Assembly: GCF_034314045.1 (NCBI RefSeq) | Contig: NZ_JAVIWL010000001.1 | Location: 4,898,001 to 4,962,000 of the forward strand | Source: Glaciimonas sp. CA11.2 | GTDB lineage: Bacteria > Pseudomonadota > Gammaproteobacteria > Burkholderiales > Burkholderiaceae_D | Reading direction: 5' to 3' | Length of the DNA stretch: 64,000 nt | Part shown: piece by piece, positions 9,116 through 15,827 of the stretch | Layout of the letters: the number at the start of each line of letters is the position of its first letter | How positions within the stretch are numbered: position 1 is the first letter of the stretch | Made by a program: the position numbers and the translations under genes | Notes under the pieces: generated by a model | What the model saw: only the letters and a program-made list of their open reading frames with translations | Database searches by the model: none | Told to the model about the DNA's origin: nothing

Positions 9116-9874
9116 TCAAACCACCTCCGCCCCAATCGTGTCACGCATGCGCCCACGCAAACGACTGATAGCCTGACTATGCAATTGGCAGACGCGAGAC
9201 TGACTTACCTCAAGTACTGCGCCAATTTCCCGCAAATTTAGCTCCTGATCGTAATATAAACTCAGCAAAAGACGCTCTCGATCAGGCATACTTTCTATCG
9301 CCTCCAACAGCACCTTACGCAGCCCGCTTTGCAGCAATTTCTGGAGAGGATCACTATTGTCGGTCGGCTTATCTTTTTCATGATGCGCGCCGCTTAATTG
9401 CTGATCAAGAAACGAATTCTCATTACTGCCACCTTCGAAGTCTTCGTAATACACCAACTGACAACCATGAATCTCTTGCAATAGTCGTTGGTATTCCTCC
9501 AGTGACAACGCCATGGCCTGCGCGATTTCACTTTCAGTCGGTGACCGCGCAAGTTTTTGTTGAAGCCCTTGCAAGGCGACCTCAACCTTGCGCGCAGACT
9601 GTCGCAACCCACGTGAGAGCCAATCGTTGGCACGCAACTCGTCAAGCATTGATCCACGAATTCGCTGGCTAGCGTAGGTTTCAAACTGCGCCCCCTGATT
9701 GTCCTGGTAACGATTAGCGGCATCCAATAGGCCCAACATACCAGCTTGTATCATGTCATCAAGCTCAACGCTGGCTGGTAATTTGGCAATTAGCTGCAAG
9801 GCCAGACGACGTACCAACGGTGCAAATTTAGTCAGCGTCCCGGACTTGTCCATTCTCCCCTGTGCTGTATACAT
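9116..9874 (-). CDS. fliA: RNA polymerase sigma-28 factor FliA
   Basis: FliA directs transcription of late flagellar and chemotaxis genes. The sequence shows sigma region 2 (LVRRLALQLIAKLPASVELD, then DMIQAGMLGLLDAANRYQ and FETYASQRIRGSMLDELR), region 3 and region 4 (MPDRERLLLSLYYDQELNLR, EIGAVLEVSQSRVCQLHSQA). The ATG at 9874 (252 residues) is chosen because AAGGA lies 8 nt upstream; the longer frame to 9922 adds residues not seen in the family. It is followed directly by flhE and preceded by flhG. Its target promoters are recognisable upstream of flgM and the MCP gene. Confidence 0.96.
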   Translation of the reverse strand: MYTAQGRMDKSGTLTKFAPLVRRLALQLIAKLPASVELDDMIQAGMLGLLDAANRYQDNQGAQFETYASQRIRGSMLDELRANDWLSRGLRQSARKVEVALQGLQQKLARSPTESEIAQAMALSLEEYQRLLQEIHGCQLVYYEDFEGGSNENSFLDQQLSGAHHEKDKPTDNSDPLQKLLQSGLRKVLLEAIESMPDRERLLLSLYYDQELNLREIGAVLEVSQSRVCQLHSQAISRLRGRMRDTIGAEVV

Positions 9875-9992
9875 TGCGATGTTCCTTATCTTCCCTATCT
9901 TCTTAATTAACGCTGGTACCAAACTTTAGGTATCGCCACTGACTACGCCCCTCACACATTAGCTGACGTGCCAAAGTCATTCGGTCATTCGG

Positions 9993-10859
9993 TCATGCAA
10001 GCAGTTCCGGCATCGCTGTGCGGTGTGAAGAGTCTCCATTTGCCACATCGCTCCTTACCTTGGATGACCATTGCATCAGGTCAGCCGCTATCCGGCGAAA
10101 CGTCAGGGCTGCGGTGCTCCTTTTGAATGCCTCTACCACGGTCAAATGTAATTGCTGCGCGTGTAAAATCTGCAAGTCAGTCATCACCGCACCAGCCGGT
10201 TCCACCGATACGGCCAGATAACGACTGCCGGTAACGGCAAGATTAGTAAGAATGCGAGATGCCTCTGCATCGCTGGCAGCACCATTCAGCACTATCCGTA
10301 CCTGTTGAAGCGCGTGTGCATGGTGAAGACGTTTGATACAAGCATAAGCGGCCGTAATGGACGCCGGTTGTGGCTGCAACACCACCATCACATAATCGGC
10401 CTGACATGCTAATGGCGACAGCGTACCGTCGTCGCCTAAAGCGGCATCAATCAGGATAATCTGATCTTGGCGCAATTGCTGTAACCCAGTCGCTGATACC
10501 GCCTTTGATACTAACTCTCTCCGTGCTATGAGTACCTGAACGCCGCAAGCGGCACGACCACCCGCCGCATCCAGAGACAGCCGTCCCGACACTACGTCGC
10601 TCCAGTTACCCAATGCGTCAACTTGCCAGATCGCAGAAGCTGTGCCTGAAGGACTCGGCGTGTGATGGACAGATTCATCGATAAGTAATACGTGCTGACC
10701 TTGTTGTGTCAGTGCAGCGGCAAGATTCATCACGACCGTGGTCGCGCCACTTTTACGACCGCTTCCTACCACGGCGATCATCCGTTGGACGTTAGTTGAA
10801 GAGGACTGCGCCATCATCGCGCGCAACCCATCGGCCTGATCGGACATTTTTGGGATCAT
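9993..10859 (-). CDS. flhG: Flagellar number regulator FlhG (FleN, MinD-like ATPase)
   Basis: FlhG is a MinD/ParA-type ATPase that restrains FlhF and so sets flagellar number and placement. The N-terminus has the FlhF-activating helix (DQADGLRAMM). The deviant Walker A reads IAVVGSGRKSGATTVVMNLA, followed by the Walker A-prime-like VLLIDES and a later switch segment IILIDAALGDDG. The C-terminal part is a membrane-type amphipathic region with ALTFRRIAADLMQW. The gene sits 34 bp after flhF and before fliA, the normal order. Confidence 0.9.
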   Translation of the reverse strand: MIPKMSDQADGLRAMMAQSSSTNVQRMIAVVGSGRKSGATTVVMNLAAALTQQGQHVLLIDESVHHTPSPSGTASAIWQVDALGNWSDVVSGRLSLDAAGGRAACGVQVLIARRELVSKAVSATGLQQLRQDQIILIDAALGDDGTLSPLACQADYVMVVLQPQPASITAAYACIKRLHHAHALQQVRIVLNGAASDAEASRILTNLAVTGSRYLAVSVEPAGAVMTDLQILHAQQLHLTVVEAFKRSTAALTFRRIAADLMQWSSKVRSDVANGDSSHRTAMPELLA

Positions 10860-10893: not shown

Positions 10894-13698
10894 TCACCGC
10901 AGCCCCGACTCAGGAATTGCCGATATATTGATCAAAGCTATGGCTGGATCGATATCCACTACACCAGAGTCAGCACTTTCACGATTTTCTATCGGCATGT
11001 CTTTTGCGGCATTTTGTAGCGACACTACGCCAGTATCCAAAACGTCCATCAATACCAAACATTTTTCCAGCCCTTCGAGCAACACCGTGCCTGACACGGC
11101 AGCCGACACCGGACTGATCCCGTCCATGCGCATGCGCATTGATCTTCCAGCCAGATGGGCTAACAATGCACGAGCCGACGGGGCCCATTCCGCTTGCGCA
11201 CGTTGCAAACGCCATACGGTCACGCTGGTCTGACCAGCGATGAGCAATCGCTTCATCATGTCGGCATCACCAGGCTCACCGCAGCCACCAGATTGCTGGA
11301 TAGCCTGCTTCAACAATTTGAAATAAGTGTCGGCTTCCACACGCCAGCGATACCACTCGATCATTTGTGAGGCCGCTACTGATTGCCCCAGATTGCTTAA
11401 CAAATGCCATTGCGCCAAACTCTTACCTGATCGTAAATCGATGATCCTCGTCACCACGCAACGCACCTCGGTGATCACTTGGCAATGAATAGTCGTATCG
11501 CCTTTTTTTTGTAAATTGCGTAGACCAACCGTTATTTCTGCTAAGGATTGAAGCGCTGCTTTGCCTTTATAGATAATCGGTTCCGACGATCCAAAATGCA
11601 GTTTATCAGCTAGCTTCGTCAGAGAAATCAACGTATCAGCAAAGATGACGGAAGTAGAAGCGCGGCCCCGCGCCAACCATTGCAAACTGCTGTTTTGCTG
11701 ATCAATGAGCAAGCTGAACGGGGGCAAGCTATCCAGAACATGGATAACAGGCTTGCCAAAATCCTGTTGTTGCAGCCACGATAATTGCCGCAGAACAGGT
11801 GAACTGGCTGACGCTTTTTCCGCGGTGACAGGGTTCTGGCGAACAGCCGTTGTCAATATCTGACGCGGCGCGGCAAGCGCCATACCAGTACTATCCGACA
11901 ACAGCAAACCGCCATGCAACATATAAGCATCGCCGCTATGCGCCGCATTTAGCGTCACTTTGCCACCAATCGCCAGCACCACCTCGTTACAACCGACTGC
12001 AATTTCGTGACGGGCATGTGTCATCAATGTCTGGGTTACACCGGTAGCGCTCACCTCTTTATCGTCCAGTTGGCGTCGCAGGCTTCGTGTCGCATCAAAA
12101 CCAATACCACCGGCGGCAAGAGCGGCTGCATTGGCTCTCAATGCTACGGAGTCATTGGATAGCGCCCGAATCAATTGCCGACATTGCATGCGCAAGCGCT
12201 CCGTAGTTGCGGTGTGTAATACCGTCTGGGCCTCGTGCGCCGCGGCTTGCAAAGCGGCAGCTTGAGCGATCTCCGGTAACGGCGTCAGTGGACTTTTCAG
12301 ATCAGCCTCACCGGGAACAAATAAGGCACTCCGACTCGCGGACTGAAACACACTTTCGACTAGTTCAGACCGATTGGCAACGATCAGATTTTCAGGCACT
12401 TTTTGGCCGGTTGAAACATAATGGACCGGCAGTCGGTGGCGTATGGCCGTGTCCAGCAATGCGCCTGGATGCGTGGCTTCGTCCATCTTTGTGAATATGC
12501 ATCCAGCTAATGTGCCGCCATCGATATCTTGACGGTACGCGTGTACCACTTCGTTAAGGGTATCGCCATGGCTGCTGGCATTGAGAAGCAACAAACGCTT
12601 AACCGGATGGCCTGTGCCGCACAGCATCGCGACCTGTTCGGCGACACTACGATCACGCTGACTTTTGCCCACAGTATCAATCAGCACCATATGTTTATCC
12701 CGCAAATCGTCAAGGACCAGCCGCAGGTCCACAGCATCCTTCACCGCATGCACCGAAACACCCAAAATCTGACCATAAATACGCAACTGCTCGTAAGCAC
12801 CGATTCGGTAAGTGTCAGTGGTCAACAATGCCAGCTTTTCAGGACCGAAACGCATTACGCAGCGGGCCGCTAATTTTGCGGTGGTAGTCGTCTTGCCAAC
12901 GCCGGTCGGCCCCATCAACGCATAGACGCCGCCATTATCCAGCAGTGCATTTTCATCTTCGAGAACTGGCAGATTACGTGCTAACTCGGCTTTAACCCAC
13001 GCCATACCGGAAGCGTAATTTCGTCCCGTCGGCAAATGATCCAGCATAGCCTTCGCCAGCCGTGCACTGAATCCCGCTCCCAGCAGCATGCGTAATAAAT
13101 GACTGCGAACGGGATCGCGACGCTGCTTTTCGTTCCATGCCAAACCTGCCAGTTGCTCCTCAATCATGCCGCGCATTGACTGTAACTCGGTTAATACACT
13201 GTCTTTAGTTGGACTGTCATCAACTTTTATGACTGGTGTTTGCAGCAATGGCTGAGGCAACGGTGGGACCGCAGCAATGTTGATCGGCGCAACAAGCTGC
13301 TCAGAAGGCGTTGATGGCGTGGTACTAATCATCGGGATGATTGCCGGTGCGACCGCAGACAAGACAGCAGACGCAAAAACGTCGCCCTCTACAAACGCCA
13401 CGATTTCTACGCCTTGTGGGGTAACACGATTAGAAATAATCACGGCATCCGGCCCTAGCTTTTCGCGCACCAAACGTAGCGCCTCCCGACTGGTTGCTGC
13501 GGTGATCGTCGTGGTGTTGACGACATTACTGATGGCAGTGATATTGCCTCCCTGGCTAACCGGTGTGGATGCTACAAAATCTGCTAAATGACTTGCTGAT
13601 TCAGCTTTTGATTCAGTTTTTAAGTTGCTCATCAAGATGCGCTCAGATTCGCCCATTAACGCTTGATCGGTTGCGGTCATGTCATTAAGGGCGTTCAA
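10894..13698 (-). CDS. flhF: Flagellar GTPase FlhF with a transposase-like C-terminal extension
   Basis: FlhF is an SRP-type GTPase that marks where a polar flagellum is built. Residues 60-110 form the FlhF N-terminal segment (ITAATSREALRLVREKLGPD). Residues 175-465 form the NG GTPase domain: P-loop GPTGVGKTTTTAKLA (263-277), TTDTYRIGAYEQLRIY, IDTVGKSQRD (340-349) and TKMDEA (403-408). FlhF usually ends there, but this frame runs on to 934 residues. Residues about 560-890 resemble IS4/Tn5-family transposases: GKPVIHVLD (648-656), SLAQWHLLSNL, EWYRWRVEADTYFKLLK (781-797), MKRLLIAGQTSVTVWRLQR, then SARALLAHLAGRSMRMR. The start overlaps the flhA stop (ATGA). No frameshift is apparent, so the fusion seems genuinely translated. 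Confidence 0.93.
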   Translation of the reverse strand: MNALNDMTATDQALMGESERILMSNLKTESKAESASHLADFVASTPVSQGGNITAISNVVNTTTITAATSREALRLVREKLGPDAVIISNRVTPQGVEIVAFVEGDVFASAVLSAVAPAIIPMISTTPSTPSEQLVAPINIAAVPPLPQPLLQTPVIKVDDSPTKDSVLTELQSMRGMIEEQLAGLAWNEKQRRDPVRSHLLRMLLGAGFSARLAKAMLDHLPTGRNYASGMAWVKAELARNLPVLEDENALLDNGGVYALMGPTGVGKTTTTAKLAARCVMRFGPEKLALLTTDTYRIGAYEQLRIYGQILGVSVHAVKDAVDLRLVLDDLRDKHMVLIDTVGKSQRDRSVAEQVAMLCGTGHPVKRLLLLNASSHGDTLNEVVHAYRQDIDGGTLAGCIFTKMDEATHPGALLDTAIRHRLPVHYVSTGQKVPENLIVANRSELVESVFQSASRSALFVPGEADLKSPLTPLPEIAQAAALQAAAHEAQTVLHTATTERLRMQCRQLIRALSNDSVALRANAAALAAGGIGFDATRSLRRQLDDKEVSATGVTQTLMTHARHEIAVGCNEVVLAIGGKVTLNAAHSGDAYMLHGGLLLSDSTGMALAAPRQILTTAVRQNPVTAEKASASSPVLRQLSWLQQQDFGKPVIHVLDSLPPFSLLIDQQNSSLQWLARGRASTSVIFADTLISLTKLADKLHFGSSEPIIYKGKAALQSLAEITVGLRNLQKKGDTTIHCQVITEVRCVVTRIIDLRSGKSLAQWHLLSNLGQSVAASQMIEWYRWRVEADTYFKLLKQAIQQSGGCGEPGDADMMKRLLIAGQTSVTVWRLQRAQAEWAPSARALLAHLAGRSMRMRMDGISPVSAAVSGTVLLEGLEKCLVLMDVLDTGVVSLQNAAKDMPIENRESADSGVVDIDPAIALINISAIPESGLR

Positions 13699-15827
13699 CC
13701 TTTACCTCCGATAGTGGCAGTAACCTTGATATTGCGGTTATCTGGAATTTCGGCATGCGACAGCACTTTTAGCTGCGGCAAGCTACGTCTTAAAAAGCGC
13801 GCCAAGAGTGCACGCAGTGGATGCTGGACCACCAGAACAGGCGTCAGACCAAGTTGTTGCTGGCGATCAATAGCCACCTGCGTCTGACTCAGCAAACTAT
13901 CCGCCAGACCAGGCTCAAGACCGCTTCCGGTGCTTAACGCCTGTAACAACATGCGATCAAGCGCCCCATCAAGACCAATGACCTGCAATTCGCTATCGCC
14001 GGGAAACAACTGCTGCGTAATCGCACGACGTAACGCCAATCGTGTCATTGACGTCAACTCGTTAGCGTCACTGATCGCTGGCGCATGTTCGGCCAACACT
14101 TCTAAAATGGAGCGCATATCACGGATAGGAACACTTTCGTCAAGCAAGTTCTGCAAGACTTTCTGTAAATTCGTCAGTGACAGGACCTTTGGCACCAAGT
14201 CATCACAGAGCTTGGGCGCTTCTTTGCTGATCCGATCCAATAGCTGCTGAACTTCTTGCCGTCCTAATAATTCGGCTGCGTGCGCATGGATCAGATGGTT
14301 CAGATGTGTCGCGATCACCGTGCTTGCATCGACCACTGTGTAGCCATAAATTTGCGCCTGTTCACGCAAATTGCTATCTATCCAGAAAGCGGGAAGCCCA
14401 AAAGCCGGATCGACGGTGGCCGTACCCGGCAAGGACGCGCTGACCTGTCCTGGGTTGATCGCCATCCATTGCCCCGGAATCGCTTCACCATGGCCTATTT
14501 CAACCCCTTTGAGAGTAATCACATACGCATTGGGCTTGAGTTCAAGGTTGTCTCGAATATGGACGACTGGGACCAAAAAGCCGATGTCCTGCGCAAACTT
14601 TTTACGAATACTTTTGATGCGCCCGAGTAGTTCACCATTTTGCGTGCGATCCACCATGGCAATCAATCGATAACCAACTTCAAGTCCAAGCGGATCAATC
14701 AGCGCCACATCGTCCCACGTCGCCTCCGCTGGCTCCATCGCCGCAGCCGCAGCAGCGGCAGCGTTCGCGGCAGACGCGGGACTATTGGCAGCATCCGCCG
14801 CCATTACTTTGCGTCGGGCGACGCGCTGACCAATCCAGACCAGACCACCAGCAATCGCCAAAAACGCGAAATGCGGCATACCCGGAATCAATCCCATCAG
14901 GCCAATGATGCCCGCGGTCAAATACATTACCTGTGGATTGGAGAACAATTGCCCCATCAACTGCTCGCCAACGTTCTCATCGGTAGTCACGCGTGAGACG
15001 ATCACACCAGCAGCGGTCGATATCACCAGCGCCGGAATCTGGGCGACCAGACCGTCGCCGATGGTGAGCAAAGTGTAACTCTTGGCAGCGACTGATATAT
15101 CCAATCCGTGCTGCGCCACGCCGACCACCAGTCCGCCAATCACATTGATCAACATGATGAGCAAACCGGCAATGGCATCACCGCGCACAAATTTGCTGGC
15201 ACCGTCCATGGAACCGTAAAAATCAGCCTCTTGCGATACTTCTGCGCGGCGTTTACGTGCAACATCCTCACCAATCAGTCCTGCATTCAGGTCAGCATCA
15301 ATCGCCATTTGCTTACCCGGCATTGCGTCAAGGGTAAACCGTGCGCCCACTTCGGCAATCCGGCCTGCACCTTTTGTGATGACCATAAAATTGATCAGCA
15401 CTAAAATGATGAACACGACGATGCCGACCGCAAAATTACCGCCAACCAAAAAGTGACCAAACGCTTCGATCACCTTCCCCGCAGCATCTGGCCCTTTATG
15501 ACCTTCCATGAGAACCACGCGGGTAGAAGCGACGTTGAGCGATAGCCGCAACAAAGTCGAAAACAACAAAATCGCCGGGAAAGCAGCAAAATCCAGCGCC
15601 TTCATTGTGTACATGCTGACCAGCAACACCATCACTGACAGCGCAATGTTGAAAGTAAATAGCAGATCCAGCAGAAACGGCGGCAACGGCAAAATCATCA
15701 TGCCGAGAATCAGAATGATCAGAATAGGACCGGCCATGCCTTTGATCTGATTGCCCGCTAACAGCAACTTTGGTAGTTGCATAAAAGAGGTCAGGCCAGA
15801 TTTGGCGGTTAAGTCTGCAAACTTCAT
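13695..15827 (-). CDS. flhA: Flagellar export gate protein FlhA
   Basis: FlhA is the large inner-membrane ring of the flagellar type III export gate and the docking site for chaperone-substrate complexes. At 710 residues it is full length. The N-terminal half holds the transmembrane helices with the family signature around LLRLSLNVASTRVVLMEGHK and FGHFLVGGNFAVGIVVFIIL; KGAGRIAEVGARFTLDAMPG marks the conserved cytoplasmic loop. An Ala-rich linker (about residues 340-360) precedes the cytoplasmic domain. It overlaps flhB and flhF by 4 nt on each side. Confidence 0.98.
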   Translation of the reverse strand: MKFADLTAKSGLTSFMQLPKLLLAGNQIKGMAGPILIILILGMMILPLPPFLLDLLFTFNIALSVMVLLVSMYTMKALDFAAFPAILLFSTLLRLSLNVASTRVVLMEGHKGPDAAGKVIEAFGHFLVGGNFAVGIVVFIILVLINFMVITKGAGRIAEVGARFTLDAMPGKQMAIDADLNAGLIGEDVARKRRAEVSQEADFYGSMDGASKFVRGDAIAGLLIMLINVIGGLVVGVAQHGLDISVAAKSYTLLTIGDGLVAQIPALVISTAAGVIVSRVTTDENVGEQLMGQLFSNPQVMYLTAGIIGLMGLIPGMPHFAFLAIAGGLVWIGQRVARRKVMAADAANSPASAANAAAAAAAAMEPAEATWDDVALIDPLGLEVGYRLIAMVDRTQNGELLGRIKSIRKKFAQDIGFLVPVVHIRDNLELKPNAYVITLKGVEIGHGEAIPGQWMAINPGQVSASLPGTATVDPAFGLPAFWIDSNLREQAQIYGYTVVDASTVIATHLNHLIHAHAAELLGRQEVQQLLDRISKEAPKLCDDLVPKVLSLTNLQKVLQNLLDESVPIRDMRSILEVLAEHAPAISDANELTSMTRLALRRAITQQLFPGDSELQVIGLDGALDRMLLQALSTGSGLEPGLADSLLSQTQVAIDRQQQLGLTPVLVVQHPLRALLARFLRRSLPQLKVLSHAEIPDNRNIKVTATIGGKG

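Follow-up and report, generated by a model that had tools for sequence, protein, structure and literature searches.

The window analysed here, a stretch of 64,000 nucleotides from Glaciimonas sp. CA11.2 (contig NZ_JAVIWL010000001.1, positions 4,898,001 to 4,962,000), carries a flagellar gene cluster in which flhF, the gene for the flagellar positioning GTPase, lies between flhA and flhG. The flhF frame is uninterrupted, with neither stop nor frameshift, and residues 63-451 of its product are an ordinary FlhF: the FlhF model TIGR03499 matches residues 63-344 with 259.7 bits against a cut-off of 174.15, identifying the NG GTPase as one of the FlhF type, and the B and NG domains as well as the flhA-flhF-flhG order are like those of known FlhFs. 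The difference begins at about residue 470, from which point the protein continues for some 400 residues beyond the place where 95 extension-free FlhFs end. No such C-terminal domain is named in the accessible part of the FlhF domain description in a 2025 review (PMC12826062), and the fusion is undescribed in the titles and abstract openings among the matches listed in a literature search, the coverage of which left out most subscription journals.

The extension is homologous in sequence to IS4/Tn5-type transposases over the length of a transposase, as recovered by both profile comparison and alignment. The first-pass annotation had proposed a transposase-derived domain, and structure prediction bears it out: the model of the extension has a Tn5-like fold, with the Tn5 inhibitor as its best solved match. 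The long predicted helix that leads from the NG domain into this fold aligns to the N-termini of transposases; its pLDDT (predicted local distance difference test) stays below 50 up to residue 515 in the full-length model, and it corresponds to a helix at positions 17-70 in the extension-only model. The NCBIfam IS4 model NF033590 gives 22.9 bits and does not reach its curated cut-off of 160. The model NF011312/PRK14723, named ‘flagellar biosynthesis regulator FlhF’, matches residues 66-888 over model positions 7-767 with 836.7 bits; the alignment covers nearly the whole model, but the window FlhF stays below the curated cut-off of 951 bits. PRK14723 is an FlhF model that already covers the extension, under a name without mention of a transposase. 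Its C-terminal part matches three annotated transposases below the cut-off (E 2e-21, 3e-32 and 1e-26), so that in practice it yields strong sub-cut-off matches to real transposases. The first transposase alignment was read without rows L004, L005, L006 and L009, and the later comparisons use eight transposases chosen by profile.

Unlike the IS4-type Tn5/IS50 transposase and the Tn5 inhibitor, the window domain has a broken catalytic triad, sits behind a GTPase and occurs in a single copy. With a Serratia transposase as guide to the catalytic columns, the first Asp is lost (Gly579) and the second is kept (Asp656), as the first-pass annotation had it; its catalytic Glu788, however, was misplaced, lying two residues before the catalytic column, which is occupied by Asp790. 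The D-D-E triad is intact in none of 64 FlhF extensions against five of the eight transposases, the other three having the first Asp gapped (two) or replaced by Asn (one). In the clade of the window protein, the first Asp is gone and the Glu column holds D or E in 20/20 sequences; the Cupriavidus clade has likewise lost the first Asp in 14/14, with D or E at the Glu column in 12/14. In the family that we label f4, 14 of 30 sequences retain the first Asp, inside an HD motif like that of transposases, while at the Glu column 29 have K, R, Q or H and the remaining one a gap. Most simply, these patterns suggest that the fused ancestor still had its catalytic residues and that catalysis was lost separately later. 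The closest transposase by tblastn, from Acinetobacter (L013 2441-3685), has Asn at the first catalytic Asp and may itself be inactive.

Table 1. Features of the flhF locus, in coordinates of the window
Feature	Position	Strand	Basis or remark
flhF open frame	10894..13698	minus	934 aa; TTG start as listed, a later ATG may be the true start
FlhF N-terminal B domain, residues 63-102	13393..13512	minus	TIGR03499 match 63-344; strands and helix in 63-102 of model
NG (SRP54-type GTPase) domain, residues 258-451	12346..12927	minus	Pfam SRP54, E 1.4e-34
Long predicted helix, residues 476-529, NG to transposase-like domain	12112..12273	minus	helix 476-529 in full-length model
Tn5/IS4-type transposase-derived domain, residues ~534-900	10999..12099	minus	sequence homology and predicted fold
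Gly579 at first catalytic Asp	11962..11964	minus	alignment
Asp656 at second catalytic Asp	11731..11733	minus	alignment
Asp790 at catalytic Glu column of YREK motif	11329..11331	minus	Y783, R786 and K797 retained
C-terminal tail, residues 901-934	10897..10998	minus	mostly low model confidence, poorly common to relatives
flhA	13695..15827	minus	upstream of flhF, overlaps its frame; TIGR01398 match
flhG, partner ATPase gene	9993..10859	minus	DQADGLR start, degenerate Walker A; assigned by alignment with counterparts
Presumed fliA (sigma-28), downstream of flhG	9116..9922	minus	provisional name, given without a family search

The fusion is old, occurs widely across Burkholderiales and is peculiar neither to this genome nor to Oxalobacteraceae; its occurrence in other families and genera excludes a local oddity of the latter. 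In the window's family, FlhF is matched in 337 of 371 genomes. Among the matches listed, at least 11 of the 337 have the long form, defined as a match to position 766 or 767 of the 768-position model. These comprise two genomes of the window's genus, eight of g28, which we identify as Collimonas because three g28 loci have an FlhF identical to that of named Collimonas loci, and one of g13, whose locus is identical in FlhF to that of Herminiimonas sp. CN. In the family of genome G527, 85 of 120 genomes are matched, 11 of them, all from genus g133, being long and above the cut-off, and no g133 genome is among the non-matching genomes listed; g133 is called Cupriavidus on account of its grouping with named Cupriavidus records. 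Family f4 has matches in 42 of 61 genomes, 37 of them long (reaching model position 657-767), and family f49 in 40 of 50, one of them long, with at least one in 150 found by the extension profile A1. All 12 loci of a named-genome scan have the full fusion (Polaromonas 5, Collimonas 4, Herminiimonas 1, Rhodoferax 1, another of Burkholderiales 1). In a class-wide sample of 370 genomes, at least seven match in addition to the window's, their open frames, at 140-456 aa, being too small to hold a fused FlhF. Profile A1 performs poorly on f4, which supplies two of its nine matching genomes among 399, and the counts based on it (the 399-genome scan, the class-wide sample and the 150 of f49) are lower bounds. 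The length after the P-loop separates the two forms cleanly: of 102 distinct FlhFs, taken from fetched loci and hence not an even sample, 38 have 220-234 aa, 64 have 481-694 aa and none falls between, and 57 more have 203-226 aa (L168, with no recognised P-loop, was dropped from the later set). Five FlhFs of 831-1150 aa (L203-L207; four of f31, one of f49) were rejected as carriers of the extension; just 226-256 aa follow their P-loop, and the extra length lies before it. The sixth long frame examined, L208, is an f4 long form. In the f4 genome G1245, FlhF matches are divided between contigs C18 and C46, in frames of 382 and 206 aa; the gene may be broken or split here, or there may be two.

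That the likeness to transposases is due to chance or composition has practically no probability: the extension has no match in Pfam, but the profile homology, the Tn5 fold and a reversed-sequence control rule this explanation out. In a tree with the eight transposases, all 64 extensions lie on one side of a single branch (SH-aLRT support 100, by a quick method with several long branches flagged; the transposase pieces L078, L080 and L081 and the distant L016 are omitted). At residue 823, each FlhF clade has Gln in 86-100% of its members, against Met in 87% of the transposases, and this M-to-Q change is a shared derived mark of the FlhF extensions. One branch, with support 92, likewise splits long from short forms in an NG-domain tree of 102 rows lacking an outgroup. 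Rooting the NG tree with 28 outgroup FlhFs (support 86 at the decisive fork, weak root) makes two changes between long and not-long necessary, which may be read as one gain and one loss, the latter in the branch of short f31 FlhFs, presumably those of Ralstonia and Burkholderia. This rooted tree omits the long-branch L136, L138, L139 and L141 and the truncated window copy L157, its 155 rows being thinned to 115. The three divergent clades of long FlhFs and the two changes in the rooted tree could speak for related transposases having been captured independently more than once, each time at the same position of flhF; against the single branch, the common change at 823 and an NG tree that accommodates one gain and one loss, or one change when unrooted, such repeated capture is very unlikely. 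The trees are best read as pointing to one capture event, in an ancestor common to several lineages of Burkholderiales. In the rooted tree, the NG domains of the window clade group closer to f31 types than to their own family's short FlhFs, which hints at horizontal transfer of flhF. A recent insertion, also disfavoured by the first-pass annotation on account of the unbroken frame and the intact downstream genes, is ruled out because a search of the Glaciimonas genome finds no second copy of the extension, no inverted repeats of at least 14 nt flank the transposase-derived domain and the same fusion is present in many other genera; the sole inverted pair of that size (14 nt, at 12131/12578) does not flank the domain.

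The extension bears the marks of a domesticated transposase, namely the same gene position in many genera, lost catalysis and purifying selection, and together with the sequence homology and fold these uphold the first-pass annotation's domesticated IS4/Tn5-type domain fused in frame to FlhF. From the homology, predicted fold, broken triad and retention under selection, all direct results of computation, we infer a role as a protein module and not as a recombinase. We think it probable that a complete, catalytically dead IS4/Tn5-type transposase, captured once, has been kept as a dimerisation or docking module of FlhF. The Tn5 fold dimerises through its C-terminal part, by which the transposase pairs, and the Tn5 inhibitor acts by pairing without cutting DNA. 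According to the available portion of the 2025 review, the NG domain of FlhF must form a GTP-dependent homodimer (PMC12826062). Since FlhF acts as such a dimer, the extension would most likely hold two FlhF chains together or dock FlhF to a partner, and could thereby alter how long FlhF stays dimeric and where flagella are seeded. Catalysis was lost by different routes, and only one clade has a transposase-like mean isoelectric point (pI), leaving the fold as the common property, which would favour dimerisation or docking.

An alternative to such a dimerisation or docking module is that the domain still binds DNA and thereby anchors FlhF at the nucleoid or at promoters, placement or flagellar expression being sensed via DNA. 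In the window clade, the mean pI equals that of the transposases (8.43 in both), with a mean net charge of 3.1 versus 6.2, and the columns of R786 and K797 hold R or K in 19/20 sequences each. However, the mean pI is lower in f4 (7.17; 5.61-9.63) and in the Cupriavidus clade (6.69; 5.88-8.56), albeit with overlapping ranges; at the K column f4 has Ala in 21/30, but 12/30 carry R or K at the R column, and all 14 of the Cupriavidus clade have lost R from the R column while carrying R at the K column. On balance, we regard retained DNA binding as unlikely. The other alternative, a functionless fused remnant that is tolerated and slowly decaying, is distinctly improbable. In 22 pairs of near relatives, the dN/dS (ratio of nonsynonymous to synonymous rates, NG86) is 0.091-0.397 for the extension and 0.016-0.260 for the NG domain, the pairs being hand-chosen from the trees, sharing members and having dS above 1 in three. 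The extension is thus constrained, though less so than the GTPase: it evolves faster than the NG domain in 22/22 pairs, as a passenger would, and it is absent from related lineages, with one apparent loss in the branch of short f31 FlhFs; yet its dN/dS is below 0.4 in every pair, only one of the 64 long FlhFs (L139, 481 aa) has fewer than 570 aa after the P-loop and the window extension is still Tn5-folded in prediction. The higher dN/dS also weighs against a dimerisation or docking module, as do several further points. The TM-scores (template modelling scores) to Tn5 are 0.46-0.50 by query length, searches of Pfam and of PDB sequences with the extension give no match, and the full-length AF2 (AlphaFold2) model is poor (pLDDT 60; pTM, predicted TM-score, 0.44), with no domain or dimer contact readable from it. 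Among the matches listed, the long form is rare in the window's own family. Finally, G003, a genome from the window's genus, has 62 bases between flhA and the following gene, which we take for fliA, and neither flhF nor flhG lies there (L202 5643-8608); its flhA is of the flagellar type, scoring above its cut-off, and a genome-wide FlhF search gives no match (flhG was not searched elsewhere in that genome), implying that the FlhF system is dispensable within the genus.

Among domesticated transposases in eukaryotes, ALP1/ALP2 are retained for protein interaction and PGBD5 has been conserved over 500 million years, according to the accessible portions of the sources; the present case differs in being bacterial and joined to a flagellar positioning GTPase. 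FlhF is a central flagellar placement factor, and a functional extension would mean that entire branches of Burkholderiales rely on a flagellar switch containing a transposase fold. It is also an instance of bacterial domestication in which catalysis was lost via different residues in different lineages while the domain was retained.

A link between the long form of FlhF and FlhG is suggestive. The FlhG start, searched as a DQAxxLR-type motif within 700 nt downstream of flhF, is present with 34/34 long FlhFs outside f4 and 38/38 short ones of f1 and f31, and in one of 30 long f4 loci (including L055, L056 and the f4 loci among L112-L141), the sole case, L139, looking degenerate. Among f49 loci the motif is missing in 12 of 29, and among outgroup loci in 13 of 28, so its absence alone is weak evidence. 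The FlhG profile matches 60 of 61 f4 genomes with a best score of 49.7 bits and no strong match standing out; these matches are taken for probable ParA/MinD-type proteins, though a degenerate FlhG could escape the profile, that of the L139 genome scoring 30.5. Because f4, where the extension is the rule, mostly lacks an flhG start by flhF and has no strong FlhG match genome-wide, one might suppose that the dead Tn5-type domain took over part of FlhG's job, resetting flagellar placement in Burkholderiales, an idea that we hold to be unlikely. A tie between the long form and peritrichous flagella would have the polar flagella of Polaromonas and Herminiimonas counting against it. The long form is found in Cupriavidus. 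In the accessible parts of the respective papers, Cupriavidus is described as peritrichous (PMC8650323), as is Achromobacter (PMC12013912), and the enteric flagellum is reported to branch from a beta-proteobacterial cluster including Bordetella, Cupriavidus and Burkholderia (PMC8042155); a strain called Bordetella petrii is credited with FlhF and peritrichous flagella, a report of little weight as it also describes endospore-like structures (PMC9120033). FlhG, the ATPase that partners FlhF, appears degenerate throughout Burkholderiales. In a pattern search, a Walker A motif (GK[TS]) follows the FlhG start in 0/34 long loci outside f4, 0/38 short loci of f1 and f31 and 0/17 of f49, and in 15/15 outgroup loci.
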